DNA from: a virus
IMG/VR virus record: IMGVR_UViG_3300025889_000427
Location: 1-35,188 of that record
Direction: 5' to 3' (one strand)
Length of the DNA stretch: 35,188 bases
Part shown: positions 39-35,066 of the stretch, piece by piece
Layout: every line of letters begins with the position of its first letter
Numbering within the stretch: the first letter of the stretch is position 1
The notes under the pieces: model-generated
The model's input: the letters and a program-made list of their open reading frames with translations, nothing else
The model's database searches: none
What the model was told of the DNA's origin: nothing
Program-made: the position numbers and the translations under genes

Positions 39-509
39 ATGAATAAAAAACCGCCAGAACTTCATATCGTTGATGGCACAACTCCACGAAAAGGCATGCC
101 TTCATCATTGCCTGACAATTTGAAAAAACGCATTCCAAAAGCAGAATGGGTGGATGACCCTGCTTCTTGGAATAAATCAAAATTTATAGAAGAAACGGCA
201 AACTTTCTTTATGAGGTATATGGGATTGGCAATGATCAAGATAAACATGCTCTAGCAATGTTGGCTGATCATATTGATACTTATGTGCAATGTAGTAAAG
301 CCATAAAAAAAGGCGGCGTTATTACCACATTCAATAATGGTCAAACAGTTGGTCCAAATCCTTATTTATCTGTTCGCAATAAAACAACAACTCTTATAAT
401 ACAATTAATGAATGAACTTGGCTTGACACCAAGAAGTAGATTGTCTGCTGGCAAACAAGAAAACGATAGCCCACTTGCGCAATTTCTTAAAGGTCCATTG
501 GCTCAATGA
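39..509 (+). CDS. terS: Terminase small subunit, P27 family-like
   Basis: This 156-residue protein is probably the DNA-recognition subunit of the packaging motor. The N-terminal segment is proline- and lysine-rich (PPELHIVDGTTPRKGMP), as in P27-type small terminases. A helical central region carries the ADHIDTY...SKAIKKGG stretch and the ITTFNNGQTVGPNPYLSVRNK stretch that in this family precedes the oligomerisation helices. The C-terminus contains LGLTPRSRL, a typical P27 ending. It lies directly before the large terminase and its stop overlaps the next ATG by four bases (ATGA), which implies translational coupling. The start is set by the poly-G ribosome binding site two bases upstream. Confidence 0.9.
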   Translation: MNKKPPELHIVDGTTPRKGMPSSLPDNLKKRIPKAEWVDDPASWNKSKFIEETANFLYEVYGIGNDQDKHALAMLADHIDTYVQCSKAIKKGGVITTFNNGQTVGPNPYLSVRNKTTTLIIQLMNELGLTPRSRLSAGKQENDSPLAQFLKGPLAQ

Positions 510-2179
510 ATTGGCAAGATGGGTTGATCTATGCGACCAATGTATCTAAAGGCGAAATAAATGTTTGTCTAGAAGTTCGATTGGCTTGTCAGCGTTTTCT
601 TAATCAATATGAAAACAAAGAATGGGCATATGTATTTGATGAACGATTCCCGCAGCACGTTTTAAATTTTGCTGCAACACTTGTCCACACCAAAGGTCCA
701 CAAGCTGGACAGTCAATAGTATTAGAACCATTCCAAATTTTTTTGATTTGCGCGGTCTATGGATTTCGCAGCAAAAAAGATTTGACGGTCAGAATGGTTA
801 CAGATGTAATACTTTTTATTCCTCGCAAGGCAGGTAAGTCAACGCTGACTGCTGCTATTGCTTTGTACGAATTGCTATGCGGCGAAACAGGCGCAGAAGT
901 ATTTACGTTGGCAACTAATCGAGAGCAAGCAACGATTGTCTTTGATGCTGCAAAAGGTTTTGTCGAAAATATGCCGACCGAACTAGCATCAATGTTTAAT
1001 CCAAGCAAATATAGTATTGCCAAACGAGGCGATACTCAATCAATGTTTAAGGCATTGAGTCGCGATACTAAAAAAACAGGCGATGGTAAAAATCCGTCTT
1101 GCGTAATTATTGATGAAGCGGCGCAGATTGTAGACCGAAATAGTATTGAAGTATTACATTCGGGCATGGTTGCGCGACAAAATCCATTGCGGATATATAT
1201 TACGACTGCATCGTTTACTAAGGACACAAAATTCTATGAAGATTTTGCATTATATAGATCGATGCTCTACGGCGATGTTACTGATAATCCTCGGTGGTTT
1301 GGCCTTTTGTATGGTCTTGATCTGCATGATGATTGGCATGATCCTAACATTTGGGCTAAGGCTAACCCAATGCACGGTATTTCTGTTTTTGAAAATGCAA
1401 TCCAACAACGAGCCGAAGAAGCCAAACATAAGCCAGCCGCATTAAATGAATTTCTTTGTAAGACATTAAATGTATTTGTATCCGCTAATGAAGCATGGAT
1501 AGATCGCAATCATTGGGATGACGAAAAAAGTATTATTACTGTTCCACGTGAAACGCCAGAAGCAGTCTTTATTGGGTTTGACTTGGCAGCAACGCGCGAC
1601 CTAAACGCTGTTTGCACATTAAAGAGATTTGGCGAATTAGATTATGAGGCGCATTGGAAATTCTTTTTGCCAGAAGAAGGTTTAAGTTTTATTCCAAAGC
1701 ATTATGCCGATGTATTTCGATTGGCTAGACAATCAGGCATTCTAAAAATTACAGAAGGCAATGTAATGGATGACCGAGAAATCTCAGAATATATTAGGCA
1801 AGAGTGTGAAAAGTATGATGTAAAAGAAGTTGGCTACGATGCTTATAACGCGGCATCAATGGTTGCTCGCTTGCATGATTATGGAATACCTGTTAAAAAG
1901 GTTGGGCAAGGCATGGCGGTATTAAACAATCCGTCTAAATACATTGAAAAATTAATTCTAAACAATCAAATAAAACATGATGGCAATCCATTCCTCGGCT
2001 GGCAATTAGGTAACTGCGAGGTCTATACAGATGTAAATGGAAACATTAAAATCCGCAAGAATGAAGCAGACAAAGCGGCAAAAGTTGATGGCATTATTGC
2101 TTTAATTATTGCGGCGCATTGCTCATTGGATAATCCATTTGTATCAAATAGCTTTGGATTCAGAAGTTTTCAGATGTAA
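506..2179 (+). CDS. terL: Terminase large subunit (ATPase and nuclease)
   Basis: This 557-residue protein is the packaging motor and headful or site-specific nuclease. The ATPase domain shows a Walker A-like RKAGKST at residues 107-113 and a Walker B CVIIDEAA around 199-206, with D203 and E204 as the metal and catalytic acids. A coupling-type segment, YITTASF, is near 231. The RNase H-like nuclease domain shows D359 in GFDLAATRDLNAV, D445 in VGYDAYNA and D528 in KVDGIIALII, which are the three expected acidic positions. The length is normal for HK97-type large terminases. It overlaps the small subunit by ATGA and is followed 24 bases later by the portal. Confidence 0.97.
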   Translation: MNWQDGLIYATNVSKGEINVCLEVRLACQRFLNQYENKEWAYVFDERFPQHVLNFAATLVHTKGPQAGQSIVLEPFQIFLICAVYGFRSKKDLTVRMVTDVILFIPRKAGKSTLTAAIALYELLCGETGAEVFTLATNREQATIVFDAAKGFVENMPTELASMFNPSKYSIAKRGDTQSMFKALSRDTKKTGDGKNPSCVIIDEAAQIVDRNSIEVLHSGMVARQNPLRIYITTASFTKDTKFYEDFALYRSMLYGDVTDNPRWFGLLYGLDLHDDWHDPNIWAKANPMHGISVFENAIQQRAEEAKHKPAALNEFLCKTLNVFVSANEAWIDRNHWDDEKSIITVPRETPEAVFIGFDLAATRDLNAVCTLKRFGELDYEAHWKFFLPEEGLSFIPKHYADVFRLARQSGILKITEGNVMDDREISEYIRQECEKYDVKEVGYDAYNAASMVARLHDYGIPVKKVGQGMAVLNNPSKYIEKLILNNQIKHDGNPFLGWQLGNCEVYTDVNGNIKIRKNEADKAAKVDGIIALIIAAHCSLDNPFVSNSFGFRSFQM

Positions 2180-4534: not shown

Positions 4535-5890
4535 ATGTCTATCGAAAAAATTCTAGAAAAAGTTGATGCTATTGAAGCATCTAACATTGCAAAAATTGAG
4601 GAAGTAAAAACTCAGGTTGTTGAAGATGTAACCAAAACCGTTGACGCTGTAAAGTCAGAACTGGCTGAACAAGTTGCGGCTTTGGAAGCAAAGGTTGCAT
4701 CAATCAAATCGCCTGATATTATTCGCGCTCCCCATAAGACTGTTCGCGGTGACGTAAATCGTCGCGTTCGTGAGCAGCTTGCTTCGTTCTACAAAGGCAA
4801 TACTAAGCTGCATCAAGAAATTAAACTGTGGGAATCTGAAGATCAGCATGCTGCTTACCTGCTAGAAGCCTCGGCTTTGACAGGCTCTGGTGCTGGTATT
4901 GGTGGTCGTACTGCTTATGATCCTGTATTCCACAAGCAGCGTCTGCTTAACCCAATGCGTGGCGTTTCTCGCAATGTATCTACTGATGGTTCAACCTATC
5001 AGTTCCGCGCAAAGACTGGCAACGCTGGTGCTGCATGGGGTTATTCAATTCAGAACAACGGTGCAGCCACGACTGAAGCAACAGCCATTTGGCAACTGAA
5101 TATGCAAGATATTAACGTTCAGTTCCCAATTCGTACTGCTGCTCTAGACGATATTGACGGTTTGGAAGCCAATGTTGTTGACGATATGCTGCAAGAGTTT
5201 TCGCAGCAAGAAGGCTTGTCAATGATTTTGAACGATGATCAAGCTGGCTCAACCACAACTGCATACGGTGGTACAAATGGTCTGCGTGGTCTGAATTATT
5301 ATCCCGGCTCAAATGCAACCTACGCTGGCGGCACTATTTCGACTGCGGCTTTTGGCTCTAGCGGTACTGCATCGTCCGATGGTCTGCATGACATTGCGAC
5401 TTACGATCAAACAACGACCAACGGAAATGGCTCGGCTAATAATGTCACCTTTGGCGATATTGTTACCTTCCTCCATTCTTTGCCACAGCAATACTGGTCA
5501 AACGGCAACAAGTTCATCATCAATCCTTTGATGCTTGCTGCTATTCGCGGTCTGGTTGATGACAATGGCACGCCAGTGTTTGAGCGTATGTCGCCTCTGG
5601 TGTACGAAGGCATTGTTGGCAAGCTGATGGGCTACGATGTTGTGGTTAACAGCTATCTGGACAATCCAACTGCTCCAGATGCTTCACCCGGCACAACCAG
5701 TTTGTTCCCAATGTATTTTGGTGACTTTAATCGTGGTCATACCATTGTTGATCGTCTGAGCATGGTGCTGCGTAGATACGAACAGACCCAGCCCGGCTTT
5801 ATTACCTTCTACGGTGAAAAGCGTTTGGCAACGTCTGTTGTTGATCCATTCAGCATTATTCGTTATCGCTCTACTGCAACAGGCGCGTAA
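4535..5890 (+). CDS. Major capsid protein 1, HK97 fold with N-terminal delta domain
   Basis: This 451-residue protein probably forms the main head shell. Residues 1 to about 60 are a heptad-rich coiled coil (delta or scaffolding domain) expected to be removed by the upstream protease. From about residue 115 (LTGSGAGIGGRT) the HK97 capsid body begins, with WQLNMQDINVQFPIRTAALDDIDGLE (spine helix region), the NDDQAGSTTTAYGGTNGLRG loop, INPLMLAAIRGL and a C-terminal YEQTQPGFITFYGEKRLATSVVDPFSIIRYR strand region. Ribosome binding site AAGGAACC precedes the ATG. A terminator hairpin follows after five bases. Codons here are richer in GC than in neighbouring genes, as usual for a highly expressed capsid gene. 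Confidence 0.95.
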   Translation: MSIEKILEKVDAIEASNIAKIEEVKTQVVEDVTKTVDAVKSELAEQVAALEAKVASIKSPDIIRAPHKTVRGDVNRRVREQLASFYKGNTKLHQEIKLWESEDQHAAYLLEASALTGSGAGIGGRTAYDPVFHKQRLLNPMRGVSRNVSTDGSTYQFRAKTGNAGAAWGYSIQNNGAATTEATAIWQLNMQDINVQFPIRTAALDDIDGLEANVVDDMLQEFSQQEGLSMILNDDQAGSTTTAYGGTNGLRGLNYYPGSNATYAGGTISTAAFGSSGTASSDGLHDIATYDQTTTNGNGSANNVTFGDIVTFLHSLPQQYWSNGNKFIINPLMLAAIRGLVDDNGTPVFERMSPLVYEGIVGKLMGYDVVVNSYLDNPTAPDASPGTTSLFPMYFGDFNRGHTIVDRLSMVLRRYEQTQPGFITFYGEKRLATSVVDPFSIIRYRSTATGA

Positions 5891-5895
5891 AAAAG

Positions 5896-5919
5896 TGGGG
5901 AGGGAAACCTCCCCATTTT
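5896..5919 (+). terminator. Intrinsic terminator between the two capsid genes
   Basis: An eight-base-pair perfect stem TGGGGAGG / CCTCCCCA closes a GAAA tetraloop and is followed by TTTTG. It begins five bases after the first capsid stop codon. The short T tract suggests partial rather than complete termination, which would let less RNA reach the second capsid gene. Confidence 0.85.
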
Positions 5920-5942
5920 GTATAACTATTAAGGAAGATCAA

Positions 5943-6965
5943 ATGAGTGCAAATCAAAAAATTCTTGACGGAATCAAATTGTCTTTGCGCGAAAATCGCA
6001 AAGTAACAATTGATCTGAGTGAGGCATCTACCTTGACCGGATCAGGTCTTGATATTGGTGGTCGCACTCACTTTGATGATGCTTTTGCAAAACTGCGATA
6101 TGCAAACCCATTTCGCATGGGCGCACGAAATATTAAAACGCCGAATATGTCGGCAGTTCAATTTGTAGCAAAAACAGGTAACGCCACAAATCAAACAAAT
6201 CCTTGGGGTTATACATTTACTCCAAATAGCGGAACACCAAATACAGCAACATCCATTTGGCAATTGCCTGCTCGAGTTATTACTGCACAGTTACCAATTC
6301 GTATTGCAGCATTAGAAGATATTAATGGTCTGCAATCTGAATTAATTGAAGATATGACATTGGAATTTGGTCAGCAAGAAGCCTATTCAATGGCATTGAA
6401 TGACGATCAATCTGGAAGTACAACAACCGCATATGGCGGCACAGACGGTTTGCGCGGTTTGGATTATTACACATCAAATACTGCATCTGCTTTTGGCAGC
6501 AGCGGCACAGCAATGACTGATGGTATTCATGACATTGCAACTGTATCGCTTGGAGGTTCCGCTATTACCTACAATAAAGTTGTAGATATTGCTAACGCTT
6601 TGCCAGCGCAATATTGGGGTTTGCCAACAACAGCATGGCACATGACTCCAACAATGATTCAAACTTTGCGCCAATTAAAAGACTTACAAGGTTTGCCCTT
6701 ATTCCTTGATGGCGGCGAGCCAATGGAAGAAGGTGCATTGTGTTCTATTTTTGGTTGGCCTGTTATTCCTAATCCTTACTTGAGTTCAGCCTTTCCAATT
6801 TATCTTGCTAATTGGGATCGATTTATGACTATTGCAGATGTGGAAGAAATGTCAATTCAAATGATGGATCAAACGGCTCCGGGTTTCATCACAATGTATG
6901 CTGAGAAGCGCATGGTGTCGACTGTAAAAGACCCGTTTGCTGGTGTTCGTGCAAGTGCAGCGTAA
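5943..6965 (+). CDS. Second HK97-fold capsid protein, paralog lacking the delta domain
   Basis: This 340-residue protein is a clear paralog of the preceding capsid protein. Shared segments include LTGSG-x-x-IGGRT, VAKTGNA/RAKTGNA, ATSIWQLP, QLPIRIAALEDINGLQ, LNDDQSGSTTTAYGGTDGLRGL, AFGSSGTAMTDGIHDIA, LPAQYW and PGFITMYAEKRMVSTVKDPF. Its LTGSG is at residue 31 against 115 in the first copy, so the whole coiled-coil delta domain is absent. The start at 5943 has AAGGAAG upstream and lies after the terminator; an upstream in-frame ATG at 5814 falls inside the first capsid gene and is rejected. It could be a minor or vertex capsid subunit, or an expression-tuned second shell protein. Confidence 0.93.
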   Translation: MSANQKILDGIKLSLRENRKVTIDLSEASTLTGSGLDIGGRTHFDDAFAKLRYANPFRMGARNIKTPNMSAVQFVAKTGNATNQTNPWGYTFTPNSGTPNTATSIWQLPARVITAQLPIRIAALEDINGLQSELIEDMTLEFGQQEAYSMALNDDQSGSTTTAYGGTDGLRGLDYYTSNTASAFGSSGTAMTDGIHDIATVSLGGSAITYNKVVDIANALPAQYWGLPTTAWHMTPTMIQTLRQLKDLQGLPLFLDGGEPMEEGALCSIFGWPVIPNPYLSSAFPIYLANWDRFMTIADVEEMSIQMMDQTAPGFITMYAEKRMVSTVKDPFAGVRASAA

Positions 6966-24940: not shown

Positions 24941-25613
24941 TGATATTCCTTTCATCGCCAAAAATAGATCGAGCAGCGGCAATGTTTTTGTCTTGATATG
25001 CAGGTGGTTTATTTCTTAAATGCTCAACAATCCAATCAGCTTTAAACCCAACCCATCCGCGCTCACAGCAAATGCGAATTGCATCCTCCAATGGAATGCT
25101 GGCTTTGTTTGCTTCCCTAATTAAGCCCTTGATTGCTGTTTCAGTAATGGCGGCTTTCTTTGATTTCCGAAGCGTTACAAAATCTTGCCAAACAGAATCG
25201 CTGACTCCTTCAGGAGTGACAACTATATGTTTTTTATTATGGTTATTGGTTATTGGTTTATGGTTTATGGTTTGCATTGGGGTTGCATTAGAGTGGTTAT
25301 TACCTCCCCATCGTTTTTGAGCGCCTCGCTTACCTGCTTCACCGTATGCGCGATACTTTGCGATTTCTTCATCAGCGCGAGAATTGACCCATCCATCATC
25401 GGTAAGTCTAAAAAAACATTCCAGTACAAACTGCACTTCAGTAGCATAATCACGCATGCCAATCTGCCTTGCGACTGTTTCTACTTCAGTAAGTAATGGT
25501 TTTTCGTGTAGATAATATTCATCTAGTAGTCGCCTGTACGCAAGATCCTCCATTAAAGACAGGTTGCGCGTATGACTAGCGTAATCACCAATGTGAAATT
25601 GAAAATAATTCAT
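24918..25613 (-). CDS. DUF1376 replication protein, O-like initiator
   Basis: This 231-residue protein probably acts in replication initiation. The N-terminal MNYFQFHIGDYASHTRNLSLMEDLAYRRLLDEYYLHEKPL is the DUF1376 signature, which is often found in lambda O-like initiators. Residues about 95-115 carry a basic linker (EAGKRGAQKRWGG). The C-terminal half (VWQDFVTLRKSKKAAITETAIKGLIREANKASIPLEDAIRICCERGW) is a helical domain seen in phage DnaD/O-like proteins. It is preceded by a CACGAAAGGA box. It overlaps the helicase loader gene. Confidence 0.9.
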   Translation of the reverse strand: MNYFQFHIGDYASHTRNLSLMEDLAYRRLLDEYYLHEKPLLTEVETVARQIGMRDYATEVQFVLECFFRLTDDGWVNSRADEEIAKYRAYGEAGKRGAQKRWGGNNHSNATPMQTINHKPITNNHNKKHIVVTPEGVSDSVWQDFVTLRKSKKAAITETAIKGLIREANKASIPLEDAIRICCERGWVGFKADWIVEHLRNKPPAYQDKNIAAARSIFGDERNINANIIDI

Positions 25614-25732
25614 GACATCCTTTCGTGAATGTAGCGATAAGTATTATGCGCGAGCATATTTTAAAAAAGAAAAAGTCATTTGTACACCCGTAAATTTTGA
25701 TTTTTTTGCGAGATTAAAAGTATCTAATTTAC
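25614..25732 (-). promoter_or_regulatory. Leader between rusA and the replication genes
   Basis: This 119-base gap, read on the minus strand, is AT-rich and holds ATAATACT (positions 25640-25647 on the complementary strand) and the ribosome binding box TCACGAAAGG at 25619-25628. The ATAATACT element recurs near other early genes and resembles a -10 region, but there is no clear -35 element here. It may be an internal promoter for the replication genes or simply the mRNA leader. Confidence 0.35.
25619..25628 (-). promoter_or_regulatory. Conserved ribosome binding box TCACGAAAGG before the DUF1376 gene
   Basis: Minus-strand TCACGAAAGG five bases before the ATG at 25613. The AAAGGA core is the Shine-Dalgarno; the TCACG extension is shared with four other early-gene start regions and is not needed for ribosome binding. 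Confidence 0.7.
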
Positions 25733-26101
25733 TTAGGAATCAAAATGAATATTTTGAATTGTTACAATACATTTGCCTTTTTTAAACAGTTCCTTGCGAA
25801 CTATATGTAAAGAGTCAATTTGACTATCGTCATCAAAAATACCTGCTTGGCACAAAGAATCTAACAAACTTTTTATTCCATTATCTATGTCACGTTTTCT
25901 ACGATCAGGAGGATATAGTTCAATATGAACCTCTAATCTAGCTGCGCCAAATCCCAATTGTTGTAATTGTTTGTAAGCAACTAAACAGTTTGCTTTGAAC
26001 TCTCTTGCTTTAATAGTAAGAAAACGATGCGATCCTTTAAATCCCCAATAAGAATTTACAGAGGGCGGGTAAGGCAAAATTAATTTCATTTTTTTTGTCA
26101 T
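25733..26101 (-). CDS. rusA: RusA-type Holliday junction resolvase
   Basis: This 122-residue protein probably cuts Holliday junctions. The family pattern is clear: ILPYPPSVNSYW near the start, then YPPDRRKRDIDNGIKSLLDSLCQAGIFDDDSQIDSL (about residues 63-97), with D71, D73 and the D90-D92 cluster as the metal-binding acids and K77 nearby. This is the standard RusA length. It is the first gene of the minus operon, divergent from the ERF gene; its two possible starts (ATG at 26101 and at 26089) both lack a Shine-Dalgarno, so translation may be poor or leaderless-like. Confidence 0.95.
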   Translation of the reverse strand: MTKKMKLILPYPPSVNSYWGFKGSHRFLTIKAREFKANCLVAYKQLQQLGFGAARLEVHIELYPPDRRKRDIDNGIKSLLDSLCQAGIFDDDSQIDSLHIVRKELFKKGKCIVTIQNIHFDS

Positions 26102-26118
26102 AGATTGATTAATTTAAA

Positions 26119-26146
26119 GTTATAATACTATTGAGTATTTGCTCAA
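26119..26146. promoter_or_regulatory. Divergent promoter with palindrome between rusA and ERF
   Basis: The plus strand holds TATAAT at 26121-26126 for the ERF gene (no good -35 at 17 bases; TTGTCA is 20 bases upstream). On the minus strand, TTGAGC (26146-26141) and TATAAC (26124-26119) are separated by 16 bases and face rusA. Between them TTGAG / CTCAA (26131-26135 and 26142-26146) form a six-base-spaced palindrome that could be an operator. The two -10 elements overlap, so one complex may exclude the other. Confidence 0.45.
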
Positions 26147-26153
26147 ATAATTT

Positions 26154-26163
26154 TCACGAAAGG
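26154..26163 (+). promoter_or_regulatory. Conserved ribosome binding box TCACGAAAGG before the ERF gene
   Basis: TCACGAAAGG lies six bases before the ATG at 26170. It decides this start over the in-frame TTG at 26131. Confidence 0.75.
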
Positions 26164-26169
26164 TTAATT

Positions 26170-26727
26170 ATGATTACATCTGAATCAATTAAACATATTG
26201 CGCCCGCATTATTAACAGCGCAGCGCAATATTACTTTTGCTGCCAAGACAGCCAAAAACCCACACTTCAAAAACAATTACGCTGACCTGCCATCGGTCAT
26301 TGATGCAGTCAAGGACGCATTGAACGATGCTGGCATTGTGTTTATCCAAACGCCAACGCCAAGCGAGGATGGACGTTTGCATCTTGTCACGCGAATGATT
26401 CATGAATCAGGCGAATGGATAGAGGATATTGCAGTATGCGCTATGCCAAAGCAAGACGCGCAAGGTTTTGGTAGTGCTATGACATATCTTCGCAGGTATA
26501 GCCTTGCAGCATTTTGTGGGTTATATCAAGCAGACGATGATGGAGAAGCAGCACGATACGATACCGAACCATACGCCAAGCAGTTACGCGCTGCTGATAC
26601 GATGGACGCGCTAAAAGAATTGTGGATGGACATTATGCGCGACCAAAAGGTCATGGGTGACAAGCAAGCGTTGCGTATATTTGAAGCAGAAAAAGACAAG
26701 CGCAAAAAAGAATTGGAGGCGCAATGA
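26170..26727 (+). CDS. erf: ERF-family single-strand annealing recombinase
   Basis: This 185-residue protein probably anneals complementary single strands. Typical ERF features are LTAQRNITFAAKTAKNPHFKNNYADLPSVIDAVKDALNDAGIVFIQTP (K-N-P-H-F-x-x-x-Y-A-D-L), then DGRLHLVTRMIHESGEWIE and the MPKQDAQGFGSAMTYLRRYSLAAFCGLYQADDDGE segment with the G-S-A-x-T-Y-x-R-R-Y-x-L motif. The C-terminal part is a short helix. It is the first gene of the plus early cluster and shares the operon with an exonuclease and SSB, a common recombination set. Confidence 0.95.
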   Translation: MITSESIKHIAPALLTAQRNITFAAKTAKNPHFKNNYADLPSVIDAVKDALNDAGIVFIQTPTPSEDGRLHLVTRMIHESGEWIEDIAVCAMPKQDAQGFGSAMTYLRRYSLAAFCGLYQADDDGEAARYDTEPYAKQLRAADTMDALKELWMDIMRDQKVMGDKQALRIFEAEKDKRKKELEAQ

Positions 26728-32031: not shown

Positions 32032-32826
32032 ATGACACAACTTGAAATTGAATATAAACAAACAAGCAAATTAATTCCCTATGCAAGAAATGCAAGAACG
32101 CATGATGAAGAACAAGTGGCGCAATTAGTAGCAAGCATTAAAGAATTTGGCTTTACAAATCCTGTATTACTCGATGGTTCAAATACTATCTTGGCAGGAC
32201 ATGGGCGAATAATGGCAGCAGAAATTCTTGGGTTAGAAACTGTGCCAACAATACAATTAAGTCATTTAACTGATGCTCAAAAAACTGCATACGTTATTGC
32301 AGATAATAAATTGGCTTTAAATGCTCAATGGGACAAGGAAATTTTGTCTCTCGAATTAAAAAGTCTTGCAGACATTGGCTATGATCTTGAATTAATTGGC
32401 TTTAATTCTGATGAGTTAGAAGAATTTAATTTAAATAAAATAGATCATGATGATGATGACAACCCTTACACAGATAAAATTGATTCTCCAACATATGAGC
32501 CAGTTGGAGAAAAGCCACAAGTTGAAGAATTATTTGATGATTTGAAAGCAATGGATTTAATTGCTTCAATCAAAGAAAGCAAATTGCCAGAAAAAGAAAA
32601 GCAATTTTTAATGGCTGCCGCATCTAGACATATTGTTTTTGATTATTCAAAAATTGCTAATTTTTATGCTCATTCATCTAAAGAATGTCAGGAACTTATG
32701 GAGAAAAGTGCTTTGGTAATTATTGATTTTAATAAAGCAATTGAAAATGGATTTGTAAGATTGACAAATGAGATAGTTGATAGATTTCATCCTAATTCTG
32801 ATGAAGAAATTGAAGAAGATGAATAA
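32032..32826 (+). CDS. ParB-like nuclease-domain protein with phage-specific C-terminal domain
   Basis: This 264-residue protein has the ParB N-terminal fold: LIPYARNARTHDEEQVAQLVASIKEFGFTNPVLLDGSNTILAGHGRIMAAEILGLETVPTI, with the N-A-R-T-H box at 20-24 and the G-H-G-R box at 56-59. ADNKLALNAQWDKEIL follows. The C-terminal part (about 165-250), EELFDDLKAMDLIASIKESKLPEKEKQFLMAAASRHIVFDYSKIANFYAHSSKECQELMEKSALVIIDFNKAIENGFVRL, is a helical domain found on phage ParB-like proteins. There is no methyltransferase domain here, although such ParB parts are often linked to modification genes. It overlaps the next gene by eight bases. Confidence 0.88.
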   Translation: MTQLEIEYKQTSKLIPYARNARTHDEEQVAQLVASIKEFGFTNPVLLDGSNTILAGHGRIMAAEILGLETVPTIQLSHLTDAQKTAYVIADNKLALNAQWDKEILSLELKSLADIGYDLELIGFNSDELEEFNLNKIDHDDDDNPYTDKIDSPTYEPVGEKPQVEELFDDLKAMDLIASIKESKLPEKEKQFLMAAASRHIVFDYSKIANFYAHSSKECQELMEKSALVIIDFNKAIENGFVRLTNEIVDRFHPNSDEEIEEDE

Positions 32827-33772
32827 CGATTATGTGTTTGTTAGACATGGACAAACATATTGGAACAAAAATGGAATTATGCATGGTCAATACGATATTC
32901 CGCTTAACTATACAGGCACAAAACAAGCAGCAATAGTTTCTAAGGAATTAAAAACAAATCATTTTGACTTATGTTTTTGTTCGCCTTTAAAACGAGCAAA
33001 ATCAACAGCGTTTAGTATTTTATTGCATCATAAAAATACAAAAATTAAGTTTGATGATAGGTTAATGGAATTAAATAAAGGTCTGCTTGAAGGAAAGCAC
33101 TTAAATAGTGAAAAAATTTTAAAAAATGAAGATGAAAATATTTTAAAAAAATTTAATATTGAAAGTAAAAAAAATTTTTTTTTGAGAGTTAAATGTTTTA
33201 TATCTGAAATAGAAGAAAAATATAAAAATAAGAAAATTCTTATAGTCGCTCATAGCGGTACTATTAAGATGCTTTTTTTTTATTTCAATTTTCCAAAAAA
33301 ACCATTACATAAAGCATATTACGATTTACATATAAAAAATTGTAAAGCATATAAATTAGATTCATCAAATGTAAAGGGTTATAAAATGAAAATTGGTTTT
33401 TTCCCGATGGTTGCAGATATTTTGCATTCTGGTCATGTTCTATCAATTGAAGAAGCAAAAAAACATTGTGATTTTCTAATCATTGGATTGCATTGCAAAC
33501 CAAATTATAAAAACCCAAAACAATCTATTTATGAACGATATATGCAGTTGCGTGCTGTTAAATGGGTTGATGAGGTAATTCCTTATGAAAATATTGATCG
33601 AGATATGGATGTCTTTGTTTCTCTTGATTACGATATTTATTTTCTTGGGGAAGATCACAAAAATGAAGAATGGGAGTTAAAAGATATTATTGAAAAACAA
33701 GAAAAGGAAATTGTATATTTGAAAAGAAAGCATAATTACAGCAGTACAAGGATAAAAAATGAAATTGAATAA
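32819..33772 (+). CDS. Bifunctional histidine phosphatase / cytidylyltransferase-like protein
   Basis: This 317-residue protein is a fusion of two enzymes. Residues 1-180 are a phosphoglycerate-mutase-like phosphatase: VRHGQTYWNKNGIMHGQYDIPLNYTG (R9, H10), FCSPLKRAKSTA (R59), MELNKGLLEGK (E84) and IVAHSGTIKML (H145). Residues 190-317 are a TagD-type HxGH nucleotidyltransferase: IGFFPMVADILHSGHVLSIEEAKKHCDFL (H203, H206), IYERYMQLRAVKWVDEVIPYE and a C-terminal HNYSSTRIK like the T-x-x-I-S-T motif. It would make a CDP-linked small molecule and remove phosphates. ATG at 32819 overlaps the ParB-like stop; an upstream in-frame start at 32777 is rejected. The gene is very AT-rich. Confidence 0.88.
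   Translation: MNNDYVFVRHGQTYWNKNGIMHGQYDIPLNYTGTKQAAIVSKELKTNHFDLCFCSPLKRAKSTAFSILLHHKNTKIKFDDRLMELNKGLLEGKHLNSEKILKNEDENILKKFNIESKKNFFLRVKCFISEIEEKYKNKKILIVAHSGTIKMLFFYFNFPKKPLHKAYYDLHIKNCKAYKLDSSNVKGYKMKIGFFPMVADILHSGHVLSIEEAKKHCDFLIIGLHCKPNYKNPKQSIYERYMQLRAVKWVDEVIPYENIDRDMDVFVSLDYDIYFLGEDHKNEEWELKDIIEKQEKEIVYLKRKHNYSSTRIKNEIE
33373..33388 (+). other. Internal ribosome binding site and ATG between the two enzyme domains
   Basis: AAAGGG at 33373-33378 precedes an in-frame ATG at 33386 by seven bases. The ATG (residue 190) is the natural first residue of the cytidylyltransferase domain (MKIGFFPMVADILHSGH), so a separate 128-residue enzyme could be made. Confidence 0.65.
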
Positions 33773-34622
33773 AAATTATGCTGTTTTTATTCTTTCGCAT
33801 GGAAGACCAGATAATGTAATTACTTATCAAACTTTGCGAAAATGTGGTTACACTGGACGAATATTTATTATTGTTGATGATGAAGATAAAACGATTAATG
33901 AATATAAAAAGCGATTTAAGAATGAAGTAATCGTTTTTAGTAAAGCTGCATATGCAAACAAGTTTGACATCATGGACAACTTTAGCGGCAATAAGGTAAT
34001 TGTTTTTGCTCGCAATGCTTGTTATGACATTGCTCGAGAATTAGGGCTCGATTATTTTTTTGAATATGAAGATGACTACACAAATTTTCAGTATAGATTT
34101 GTTGATGGGGATGCTTTAAGAGGACGAACTATTCGCAAACTTGATGAAGTATTAGATTTAATGATTGATTGTTTAAATGATACAAAAGCAACAACTATTG
34201 CTTTTTCTCAAGGAGGCGATTTTATTGGTGGAGCAGGAGCCTTTAAAAATAATATATTTAAGAGAAAGGCAATGAATAGTTTTGTATTTAAAGTAAATAC
34301 TAATCCTGCTGACGATTTGCTTTTTATTGGCAGAATGAATGATGATGTTAATACTTATCTAACACAAGGAAAAATAGGCAAATTATTTTTTCAAACAGCT
34401 AATTTAAATTTAGTTCAATTAACAACACAATCAAATTCAGGTGGAAATACAGAGGCATATAAATCCTTTGGCACTTATGTTAAGTCTTTTTATAGCGTAA
34501 TAGCAGAGCCAAGTTGTTGCAAGATTGATTTAATGGGTCGTACAAATAAAAGAATTCATCACAAAATTAAATGGAATAATGCAGTCCCAAAAATTATTAA
34601 TGAATCCTTTAAAAAAAGATAA
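33759..34622 (+). CDS. TAGT-type glycosyltransferase (TET-associated family)
   Basis: This 287-residue protein matches the TET-associated glycosyltransferase pattern: YAVFILSHGRPDNVITYQTLRKCGYTGRIFIIVDDEDKTINEY at the start, FARNACYDIARELGLDYFFEYEDDYTNFQYRF (residues about 83-114) with an E/D-D-D acidic cluster at 104-106 like a GT-A D-x-D metal site, AFSQGGDFIGGAGAF near 148-162, and GRMNDDVNTY near 191. In this family the enzymes glycosylate modified cytosines in phage DNA. No TET hydroxylase is seen nearby. AAGGA lies upstream, and the gene overlaps the previous one by 14 bases. Confidence 0.85.
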   Translation: MKLNKNYAVFILSHGRPDNVITYQTLRKCGYTGRIFIIVDDEDKTINEYKKRFKNEVIVFSKAAYANKFDIMDNFSGNKVIVFARNACYDIARELGLDYFFEYEDDYTNFQYRFVDGDALRGRTIRKLDEVLDLMIDCLNDTKATTIAFSQGGDFIGGAGAFKNNIFKRKAMNSFVFKVNTNPADDLLFIGRMNDDVNTYLTQGKIGKLFFQTANLNLVQLTTQSNSGGNTEAYKSFGTYVKSFYSVIAEPSCCKIDLMGRTNKRIHHKIKWNNAVPKIINESFKKR

Positions 34623-34628
34623 CTCGCA

Positions 34629-35066
34629 ATGCCATTTGTTCCTCGTTATAAATTATGTGCTGAACTTGGGTGCAAAAACCCCAGACATTTAAAAAGTACT
34701 TTATGTATACAACATGGCGGCAAAGCGAATAATTTTAGAAAAAATGAGCAAAATAAAGGTTCGTTATATCATTCTGCTCAATGGCATTCATTAAGGGTCA
34801 TACAATTGACGCGCGAACCTTTATGCGCTGGTTGTAAATCAAGAGGCAAAATAGAGTCTGCTACTGTGGTAGATCATATATTTCCTTGGATGCAAATAAG
34901 TAAGGAAGCATTTTTTTTTAATATATTTCAAAGTTTGTGTATACATTGTCACAATTACAAAACTCAACTTGAACGCAAAGGTACTTACAGAAGATTTGGG
35001 ACTCCCCATATTGATTACAATCGCTCTGATTACATGATGGTTATGATGGAAAATGAGCGCATATAA
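34629..35066 (+). CDS. HNH homing-type/packaging endonuclease
   Basis: This 145-residue protein is an HNH endonuclease with zinc-binding Cys pairs: N-terminal KLCAELGCKNPRHLKSTLCIQHGGK, then EPLCAGCKSRGKIESATVVDHIFPW with D-H, and FQSLCIHCHNYKTQLERKG with C-x-x-C-H-N. The layout fits phage HNH enzymes that lie next to terminase genes and help packaging. If the genome map is circular, this gene precedes the terminase small subunit at the start of the window. The start has only a weak ribosome binding site. Confidence 0.9.
   Translation: MPFVPRYKLCAELGCKNPRHLKSTLCIQHGGKANNFRKNEQNKGSLYHSAQWHSLRVIQLTREPLCAGCKSRGKIESATVVDHIFPWMQISKEAFFFNIFQSLCIHCHNYKTQLERKGTYRRFGTPHIDYNRSDYMMVMMENERI

Follow-up and report, generated by a model that had tools for sequence, protein, structure and literature searches.

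Introduction

The TAGT glycosyltransferase of phage T6 puts a second glucose on α-glucosyl-5-hydroxymethylcytosine (α-glucosyl-hmC) (PMC13390438), and a solitary TAGT, without an α- or β-glycosyltransferase (GT), is present in 288 of 753 surveyed phage genomes (PMC13216743). A TAGT without a TET enzyme is already a known situation, and not odd in itself. Production of a phage's own sugar donor for DNA glycosylation has been proposed for arabinosylating phages and partly shown for phage Thanatos (PMC12838424 for Thanatos), and ParB domains are found with, or as fusions to, phage DNA methyltransferases, and also next to the DNA-modifying protein CmoX (PMC12783734, PMC12704722). Here we describe a cassette of three overlapping plus-strand genes at positions 32032-34622 of IMG/VR virus record IMGVR_UViG_3300025889_000427 (the window, which spans the entire record, 35,188 bp). 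The genes encode a ParB_N protein with an unnamed C-terminal domain (CTD), a fusion of a histidine phosphatase with a nucleotidylyltransferase (CT), and a TAGT. We read this locus, with slightly more confidence than an even call would carry, as a self-contained and horizontally moving DNA-glycosylation cassette with a phage-made donor. Solitary TAGTs are common and unexplained, and a large group of them now has a constant partner, the CTD, and a frequent home in Escherichia coli.

Results

Organization of the cassette

The features of the cassette are as follows.

32032..32454, plus strand: ParB_N domain (ParB/Srx fold), N-terminal part of gene 1; PF02195, E=1.7e-6; GHGR replaces the ParB GERR box
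32467..32826, plus strand: unnamed CTD of gene 1; YEP...RHxVFNYxxIAxFYAH...LMExSALVIID..AIENGF
32819..33370, plus strand: histidine phosphatase branch 1, N-terminal half of the gene 2 fusion; PF00300, 6e-36
33386..33772, plus strand: CTP_transf_like nucleotidylyltransferase (CT), C-terminal part of gene 2; PF01467, 4e-14; HxGH and RxHxYSS motifs
33759..34622, plus strand: TAGT glycosyltransferase, GT-A fold, gene 3 (287 aa); PF20691, 9.7e-32

The sequence-only reading of this stretch had called three adjacent, overlapping genes for a ParB-domain protein, a phosphatase-cytidylyltransferase fusion and a TAGT, and both the arrangement and the domain calls were confirmed by Pfam and PHROG profiles (PF02195, PF00300 with PF01467, and PF20691). 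Gene 3 scored 111 bits with PF20691, against a cut-off of 27.5, and also matched phrog_842 (5.5e-64). Residues D105, D196, K242 and H267 were invariant among TAGTs (alignment A3), and the Foldseek matches were of the GT-A/GT2 type, the best of them including protein glycosyltransferases (ColGalT1).

As read from the sequence, gene 2 naturally starts at position 32819, with an ATG that overlaps the stop of the ParB gene, and it ends at 33772 (317 aa). The list of open reading frames (ORFs) begins this gene at a TTG at 32777 (331 aa), and that start needs moving to the ATG. In the resulting protein, His_Phos_1 covers aa 5-181 and CTP_transf_like aa 199-313. The catalytic residues of the phosphatase (R8, H9, G10, R58, E83 and H144 in the numbering of alignment A8) were invariant, the RHG, second R, E and second H of histidine phosphatase branch 1 were all present, and the active residues of both the phosphatase and the CT were invariant over the 14 aligned relatives. 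In the PDB, the phosphatase matched phosphoserine phosphatase 1, CobC and PGM.

Linkage of the nucleotidylyltransferase to TAGT

The same phosphatase-CT fusion was found in 63 loci, and thus is not a chance product. Five further loci have a CT alone, with the phosphatase absent, and in every readable locus of the main clade the CT lies directly before the TAGT; therefore, the phosphatase is dispensable and the CT is not. A cellular origin of the fusion was considered, but none turned up in a scan of 84,980 species genomes.

The main clade is one of three separate CT-TAGT linkages. In locus L174 the CT lies just after the TAGT and was gained separately. The third linkage is a second cassette type (L205, 2137-6485; L207; L208; L210; and L285, 4916-9712, a Lachnospiraceae prophage), in which ParB, a HAD phosphatase-kinase fusion, a CT and a TAGT-like transferase are combined with terminase and, in most cases, a radical SAM protein. 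Its gene order varies a little: in L285 the transferase is followed by two ParB genes, and L208 is truncated on its upstream side. The kinase half is of the APH/RIO type, the radical SAM protein is PA0069-like, and the transferase is kin to TAGT (hhalign E=8e-9; PF20691 6e-15 for L285). CT and TAGT have thus come together on at least three separate occasions, which is hard to explain unless the CT makes the TAGT donor, a link that is well supported by context.

The metal-binding motif of the transferase changes together with the CT. Among 166 long TAGT sequences, the DxD motif is EDD in all 70 TAGTs of the CT clade (E104-D105-D106 in the window), and DDD in 93 of the 95 TAGTs without a CT, none of which has EDD; the TAGT of L174, with its separate CT gain, has DDD. 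In the TAGT tree the CT-bearing TAGTs form one clade with 100/100 support, and L174 stands elsewhere. The EDD switch suggests, but does not prove, that the donor pocket has changed, and we rejected counting it as 70 independent observations, since it falls within a single clade.

What the CT activates was approached by comparison with characterized families. Its best PDB match was TagD, a glycerol-3-phosphate cytidylyltransferase (1.9e-13), followed by ethanolamine-phosphate cytidylyltransferase (7e-11). With the model for glycerol-3-phosphate cytidylyltransferase, TIGR01518, it scored 1e-14 and 54.7 bits, short of the equivalog cut-off of 165.4, and with that for heptose-1-phosphate nucleotidyltransferase, TIGR02199, 1.5e-13 and 50.8 bits, short of the cut-off of 181.5. 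Where TagD has RTEGISTT (the RTxGISTT motif), the C-terminal signature of the CT is RxHxYSS, and in the CT tree the cassette CTs form a separate, long-branched clade (branch 1.53). For this reason, we rejected an assignment of the donor substrate from CT phylogeny. The sequence-only reading had proposed an unusual, cytidine diphosphate (CDP)-linked donor on account of the CT domain. In its general form this proposal stands, given at least three CT-TAGT linkages and the motif change that goes with the CT; the CDP detail is unproven, as the CT matches the glycerol-3-phosphate and heptose-1-phosphate models about equally, lacks RTxGISTT and belongs to a clade of its own.

More distant members of the CT superfamily lie in various gene neighbourhoods. 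In L246 (3709-7975) such a member occurs with GmhA-, GmhB-, transaldolase- and HddA-like genes and a GT4-type glycosyltransferase, and in L230 (4001-6816), a locus that ends earlier, with GmhA-, GmhB- and transaldolase-like genes and no kinase. These uncultured phage contigs carry an apparent phage-borne nucleoside diphosphate (NDP)-heptose pathway with a CTP_transf_like nucleotidyltransferase; heptose as a settled donor was nevertheless rejected, because the cassette CT is in a separate clade. Among the nearest CTs in named phages is that of Agathobaculum phage AB434P2 (OP172633.1; L121, 769-8307), where the CT lies beside a dUMP hydroxymethylase. The run in this phage comprises a thymidylate-kinase-like protein, a HAD-kinase fusion, the CT, two proteins of unknown function, the dUMP hydroxymethylase and DNA polymerase III alpha, and looks like a thymine hypermodification operon. 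The two CT neighbours of 328 aa and 361 aa gave no family match, and the 328-aa protein had no convincing PDB match. Other distant CTs are located in sugar-nucleotide neighbourhoods of Bacteroidota (epimerase, uridine diphosphate (UDP)-sugar dehydrogenase-like genes) and by sugar genes in cyanophages.

The ParB_N-CTD protein

Gene 1 (264 aa) is divided into ParB_N (aa 1-140) and the CTD (aa 146-264). The match to PF02195 was above the gathering score, phrog_620 was matched at 1e-65, and the AlphaFold model of ParB_N resembled ParB/Noc/KorB and then sulfiredoxin and free serine kinase in Foldseek. The window ParB_N also matched phrog_498, which is annotated as DNA methyltransferase (1.5e-50). 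With the model for canonical ParB, TIGR00180, the protein reached 30.9 bits, below the cut-off of 58.45; its C-terminus is the CTD, and no ParA neighbour was present among the PHROG and Pfam matches in the window.

The CTD contains 15 invariant columns in an alignment over 21 phages, which includes sequences from E. coli, Lactobacillus, Nocardia, Vibrio, a haloarchaeal virus and uncultured viruses. Neither Pfam nor the PDB gave a match to the CTD itself; the Foldseek matches were all ParB/Srx-fold proteins, none describing the CTD, and its predicted fold is helical, with good confidence over most of the domain. When IMG/VR was scanned with the CTD alone, TAGT was present in 79 of the 80 loci; the remaining one (L176, 3560-4351), from an E. 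coli phage, keeps ParB-CTD with another gene in the place of TAGT, which was apparently lost there. In the opposite direction, loci found by TAGT lacked the CTD only where the contig ends too early, and in the distant L011; L010 has no more than a much diverged C-terminal region. Overall, CTD and TAGT occur together in 161 loci. Some relatives lack ParB_N or have a domain of another type in its place. A stand-alone CTD gene precedes TAGT in Vibrio phage pv27 (L008) and in L078, and in L060 (6684-7604) the CTD is fused to a GmrSD_N/ParB-like domain (IIDGHQR) instead of ParB_N, so that the DNA-side domain is swapped while CTD and TAGT are retained. Since TAGT accompanies nearly every CTD, and ParB_N is missing or exchanged in some loci, the CTD is the near-obligate TAGT partner in this subfamily, and ParB_N an exchangeable attachment. 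The call of gene 1 as a ParB-domain protein was thus correct for ParB_N, but missed the CTD, which is the constant partner.

In pv27, a phage of 191 kb (L008, 5432-5875, and L120, 7507-7971), the stand-alone CTD lies by TAGT and a separate CT gene is located about 83 kb away; a gene of the thymidylate synthase family is found at 25391-26248. A literature search for a link of ParB with TAGT, or for one involving the CTD, found none; the work of Iyer et al. 2013, which reportedly introduced the TAGTs, lay outside this search, and an earlier notice of the ParB-TAGT pair is possible.

Distribution of the cassette

The ORFs of 14 genomes, the window plus 13 near-complete relatives, were all clustered. 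The phosphatase-CT was present in 13 of the 14, the exception, G017, being the relative that was chosen without a CT. TAGT was recovered in 13 and ParB-CTD in 12, and the gaps (G009, G003 and G014) were genes present in the locus annotation that the piecewise ORF listing had missed. Only these three families span nearly all 14 genomes, the next most shared family reaching 10, so that the cassette is carried by phages with different backbones. The hosts of CTD-TAGT viruses range over Gram-negatives, Lactobacillus, Nocardia and a haloarchaeon.

A ParB-CTD/TAGT core without a CT was found, at a query coverage of at least 80%, in at least 903 of 5,426 complete E. coli genomes. Where inspected, the pair was located in prophages between trkG and terminase, and RefSeq labels its genes 'ParB/Srx family (ynaK)' and 'hypothetical protein'. 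YnaK of the K-12 Rac prophage (L365, 2378-2641, corresponding to NC_000913.3, 1425377-1425640) is an 87-aa ParB_N fragment, 98% identical to aa 1-86 of the ParB_N-CTD protein from the CTD-TAGT pair, which hundreds of other E. coli genomes carry intact. K-12 YdaY was considered as a TAGT remnant and rejected, as it gave no alignment to TAGT.

Search for base-modifying enzymes

The sequence-only reading had found neither a TET-type dioxygenase nor a cytosine-C5 methyltransferase in the window, and this holds as far as it is testable. Tet_JBP (PF12851) matched in 0 of 28 and 0 of 14 records, the window included, with a model that had no valid positive control and was nowhere above its cut-off. 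The cytosine-C5 methyltransferase model (PF00145) matched in none of the CT-bearing records, including the window, and had control matches in 10 genomes, so that the suggested search of relatives for both enzymes came out negative for the CT-cassette records within the same limit on Tet_JBP. Likewise, the thymidylate synthase family (PF00303; control matches in 9 genomes) was absent from the window and the CT-cassette records. Most of the other window proteins were scanned with PHROG and Pfam, and only structural, recombination and replication genes were found, with no base-modifying enzyme among them. The stronger argument is independent of any profile model: no fourth gene is common to all cassette genomes, and thus ORF clustering revealed no dedicated TET or methyltransferase travelling with the cassette.

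Neighbouring genes

The window is probably near complete, since several relatives are of similar size (35.0-38.3 kb). Its genes, as identified by PHROG and Pfam scans, are of the siphovirus type: terminase, portal, head, tape measure, tail, endolysin, an Erf/RecE recombination pair and RusA. The features next to the cassette are as follows.

34629..35066, plus strand: HNH endonuclease, outside the cassette; PF01844, 8.5e-6
39..2179, plus strand: terminase small and large subunits; phrog_83, 1.7e-17, and phrog_9, 2e-137

In the relatives compared, the HNH gene adjoins the cassette often, though not always, and on a circular reading of the record the terminase comes after it. A position before terminase is the usual placement of the CTD-TAGT pair and is the same in several named phages. 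The major head protein family phrog_10 was matched by two overlapping window ORFs (4535-5890 and 5814-6965), either a duplication or a two-part head gene.

Discussion

Our computations established the domain identities, the intact catalytic residues, the coupling of both the CTD and the CT to TAGT, and the motif switch, and around these we propose the following mechanism. The phosphatase would take one phosphate off a bisphosphate, or otherwise correct a phosphosugar or polyol phosphate precursor of the host, after which the CT may couple the remaining phosphate to a nucleoside triphosphate (NTP), giving a nucleotide-activated donor. TAGT, a GT-A transferase with a DxD motif presumably retuned from D to E for this donor, would move the activated group onto an acceptor, which could be a host-modified or an unmodified base. 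The CTD is the candidate partner subunit that binds or activates TAGT, and ParB_N, as a putative NTP-dependent DNA clamp or loading fold, may bring TAGT to the phage DNA. Modification would probably take place late in infection, just before packaging, and could shield the packaged DNA from host nucleases. By analogy, DNA is the likely acceptor, mainly because ParB goes with phage DNA-modifying enzymes and the window ParB_N matches phrog_498, and also because the T6 TAGT modifies phage DNA. We consider the chances about even that the cassette serves hypermodification of phage DNA by TAGT with a phage-made donor.

Several points weigh against this proposal. The cassette contains no gene for making an oxidised base, and no TET, C5 methyltransferase or thymidylate synthase was found, which leaves the acceptor unexplained. 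The main-clade CT is so divergent that its substrate is not readable from relatives, and the EDD switch, being on one branch, is one event and not 70. The confidence of the TAGT model is low in the C-terminal third, too low for this part of the structure to be used. Moreover, we found no published evidence of modified DNA in any CTD-TAGT virus, and the reviews of haloarchaeal viruses that we consulted mention none for HHTV-2.

The nature of the donor can be narrowed without leaving the proposal of DNA glycosylation. A phosphatase with a nucleotidyltransferase fits best with a route from bisphosphate to NDP-sugar, and next with a CDP-polyol. In a donor-specific form that is compatible with this proposal, the fusion would convert the 1,7-bisphosphate of heptose or a like aldose into the 1-phosphate and then the NDP-sugar, with the host performing the first steps. 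The heptose gene sets of L246 and, except for the kinase, L230, the match to the heptose model, the HAD phosphatase-kinase fusions that precede the CT in the second cassette type, and the use of NDP-sugars as normal donors of GT-A enzymes are consistent with this, whereas the separate clade of the cassette CT, the slightly better score of the glycerol-3-phosphate model, TagD as the best PDB match, and the five loci without a phosphatase speak against it, so that we regard it as tentative, and at less than even weight. Somewhat unlikely, in our judgement, is a CT that makes a CDP-polyol of the CDP-glycerol type from which TAGT transfers the polyol phosphate or polyol. The TagD and ethanolamine-phosphate cytidylyltransferase matches and TIGR01518 point that way, and the hypermodified-DNA phage SP-15 carries a CDP-glycerol glycerophosphotransferase (PMC5977210), but the RxHxYSS signature replaces that of TagD, the scores are far under the equivalog cut-offs, and a phosphatase would be superfluous for glycerol-3-phosphate. 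It is very unlikely that TAGT uses a common UDP-sugar of the host, with the phosphatase-CT as a passenger or in a separate job on cytidine triphosphate (CTP) pools or the nucleotide state of ParB: at least 95 TAGT loci have no adjoining CT, and ParB folds bind CTP, ATP or GTP (PMC12704722), but such a role does not account for three separate CT-TAGT linkages, a CT that is never lost in the clade where readable, or a TAGT motif that tracks it.

Other explanations change the acceptor. TAGT and its partner could glycosylate a virion or other phage protein (capsid, portal or terminase), the donor then decorating particles; GT-A/GT2-type folds serve many acceptors, as the ColGalT1 match illustrates, the cassette abuts terminase and head genes, and the lack of a base-priming enzyme would fit as well. 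We nevertheless hold this to be quite unlikely, since the usual partner is a ParB-family domain of the kind that goes with phage DNA-modifying enzymes, the T2/T6 TAGT acts on DNA, and the pair occurs with differing head and packaging genes, with no single conserved virion acceptor evident. Alteration of host surface glycans or teichoic acids for superinfection exclusion, with ParB unrelated, would agree with the sugar genes next to CT superfamily members in Bacteroidota and cyanophages and with the carriage of the E. coli pair by prophages; however, the envelopes of the CTD-TAGT hosts differ widely and the partner is a ParB-fold protein, making this explanation most improbable. Returning to DNA as the acceptor, ParB-CTD and TAGT could form a minimal two-protein system that glycosylates a canonical base directly, without its having been oxidised or hydroxymethylated first, in which the CTD would be a base-presenting or activating subunit and the CT clade would employ a phage-made, non-UDP donor. 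We think this unlikely, but mention it as a specific version of the proposed mechanism.

The earlier view that a TAGT implies a TET route was too strong, as the T2/T6 TAGT extends α-glucosyl-hmC and solitary TAGTs are common (PMC13216743, PMC13390438), and we make no claim that the cassette belongs to the TET-linked cytosine hypermodification systems. A TAGT clade that carries a presumed donor-making enzyme of its own, and whose metal motif has changed in parallel, suggests that phage DNA chemistry includes a new nucleotide-activated donor. This would be relevant to the escape of phages from restriction, type IV nucleases and DNA glycosylases. The presence of ParB-CTD/TAGT in E. coli genomes makes the question of TET-less TAGTs testable in laboratory strains.

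Comparison with known systems

TagD and the C-domain of HldE share the CTP_transf_like fold and the HxGH motif with the window CT, which differs in having RxHxYSS for RTxGISTT, a fused histidine phosphatase and a separate clade. The CmoX/CmoY carboxymethylcytosine system of Synechococcus phage S-B43 is likewise a base modification with ParBc often nearby (PMC12783734), but it uses carboxymethyl transfer and an AMP-forming ligase, and TAGT is unmentioned in PMC12783734. S-B43, the CmoX discovery phage, also carries a CT homologue that is annotated as putative TagD (MN018232.1, 58598-58996). The pentose modification of Shewanella phage Thanatos resembles the window in its phage-encoded sugar activation for DNA glycosylation (UDP-xylose pyrophosphorylase TH1_063; PMC12838424), although that enzyme is a UDP-sugar pyrophosphorylase resembling glycosyltransferase folds, and Thanatos has a deoxycytidylate hydroxymethylase/thymidylate synthase-like gene. 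The arabinosylation clusters of RB69, NP and Bas46 also combine a DNA glycosyltransferase with candidate enzymes for activation of an unusual sugar (PMC6024577, PMC13390438). These phages have genomes of ~170 kb with a 5-hydroxy-dCMP synthase and an isomerase, epimerase, kinase and NTP-transferase, whereas the window has a single phosphatase-CT fusion in a 35-kb genome, in which no base-priming gene was found. In the E. coli prophage pair, ParB_N-CTD lies by a TAGT that is 50% identical to that of the window, before terminase as in the window, but with no phosphatase-CT and with a DDD motif. Finally, the T2/T6 TAGT (β-glucosyl-HMC-α-glucosyltransferase) has PF20691 and a GT-A fold like the window TAGT, and belongs to hmC-type phages without a TET route (PMC13216743, PMC13390438). 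The T6 enzyme extends α-glucosyl-hmC, for which the phage makes hmC at the nucleotide level; in the window no hydroxymethylase or α/β-GT was found, and its TAGT has instead the CTD as partner and donor genes of its own.

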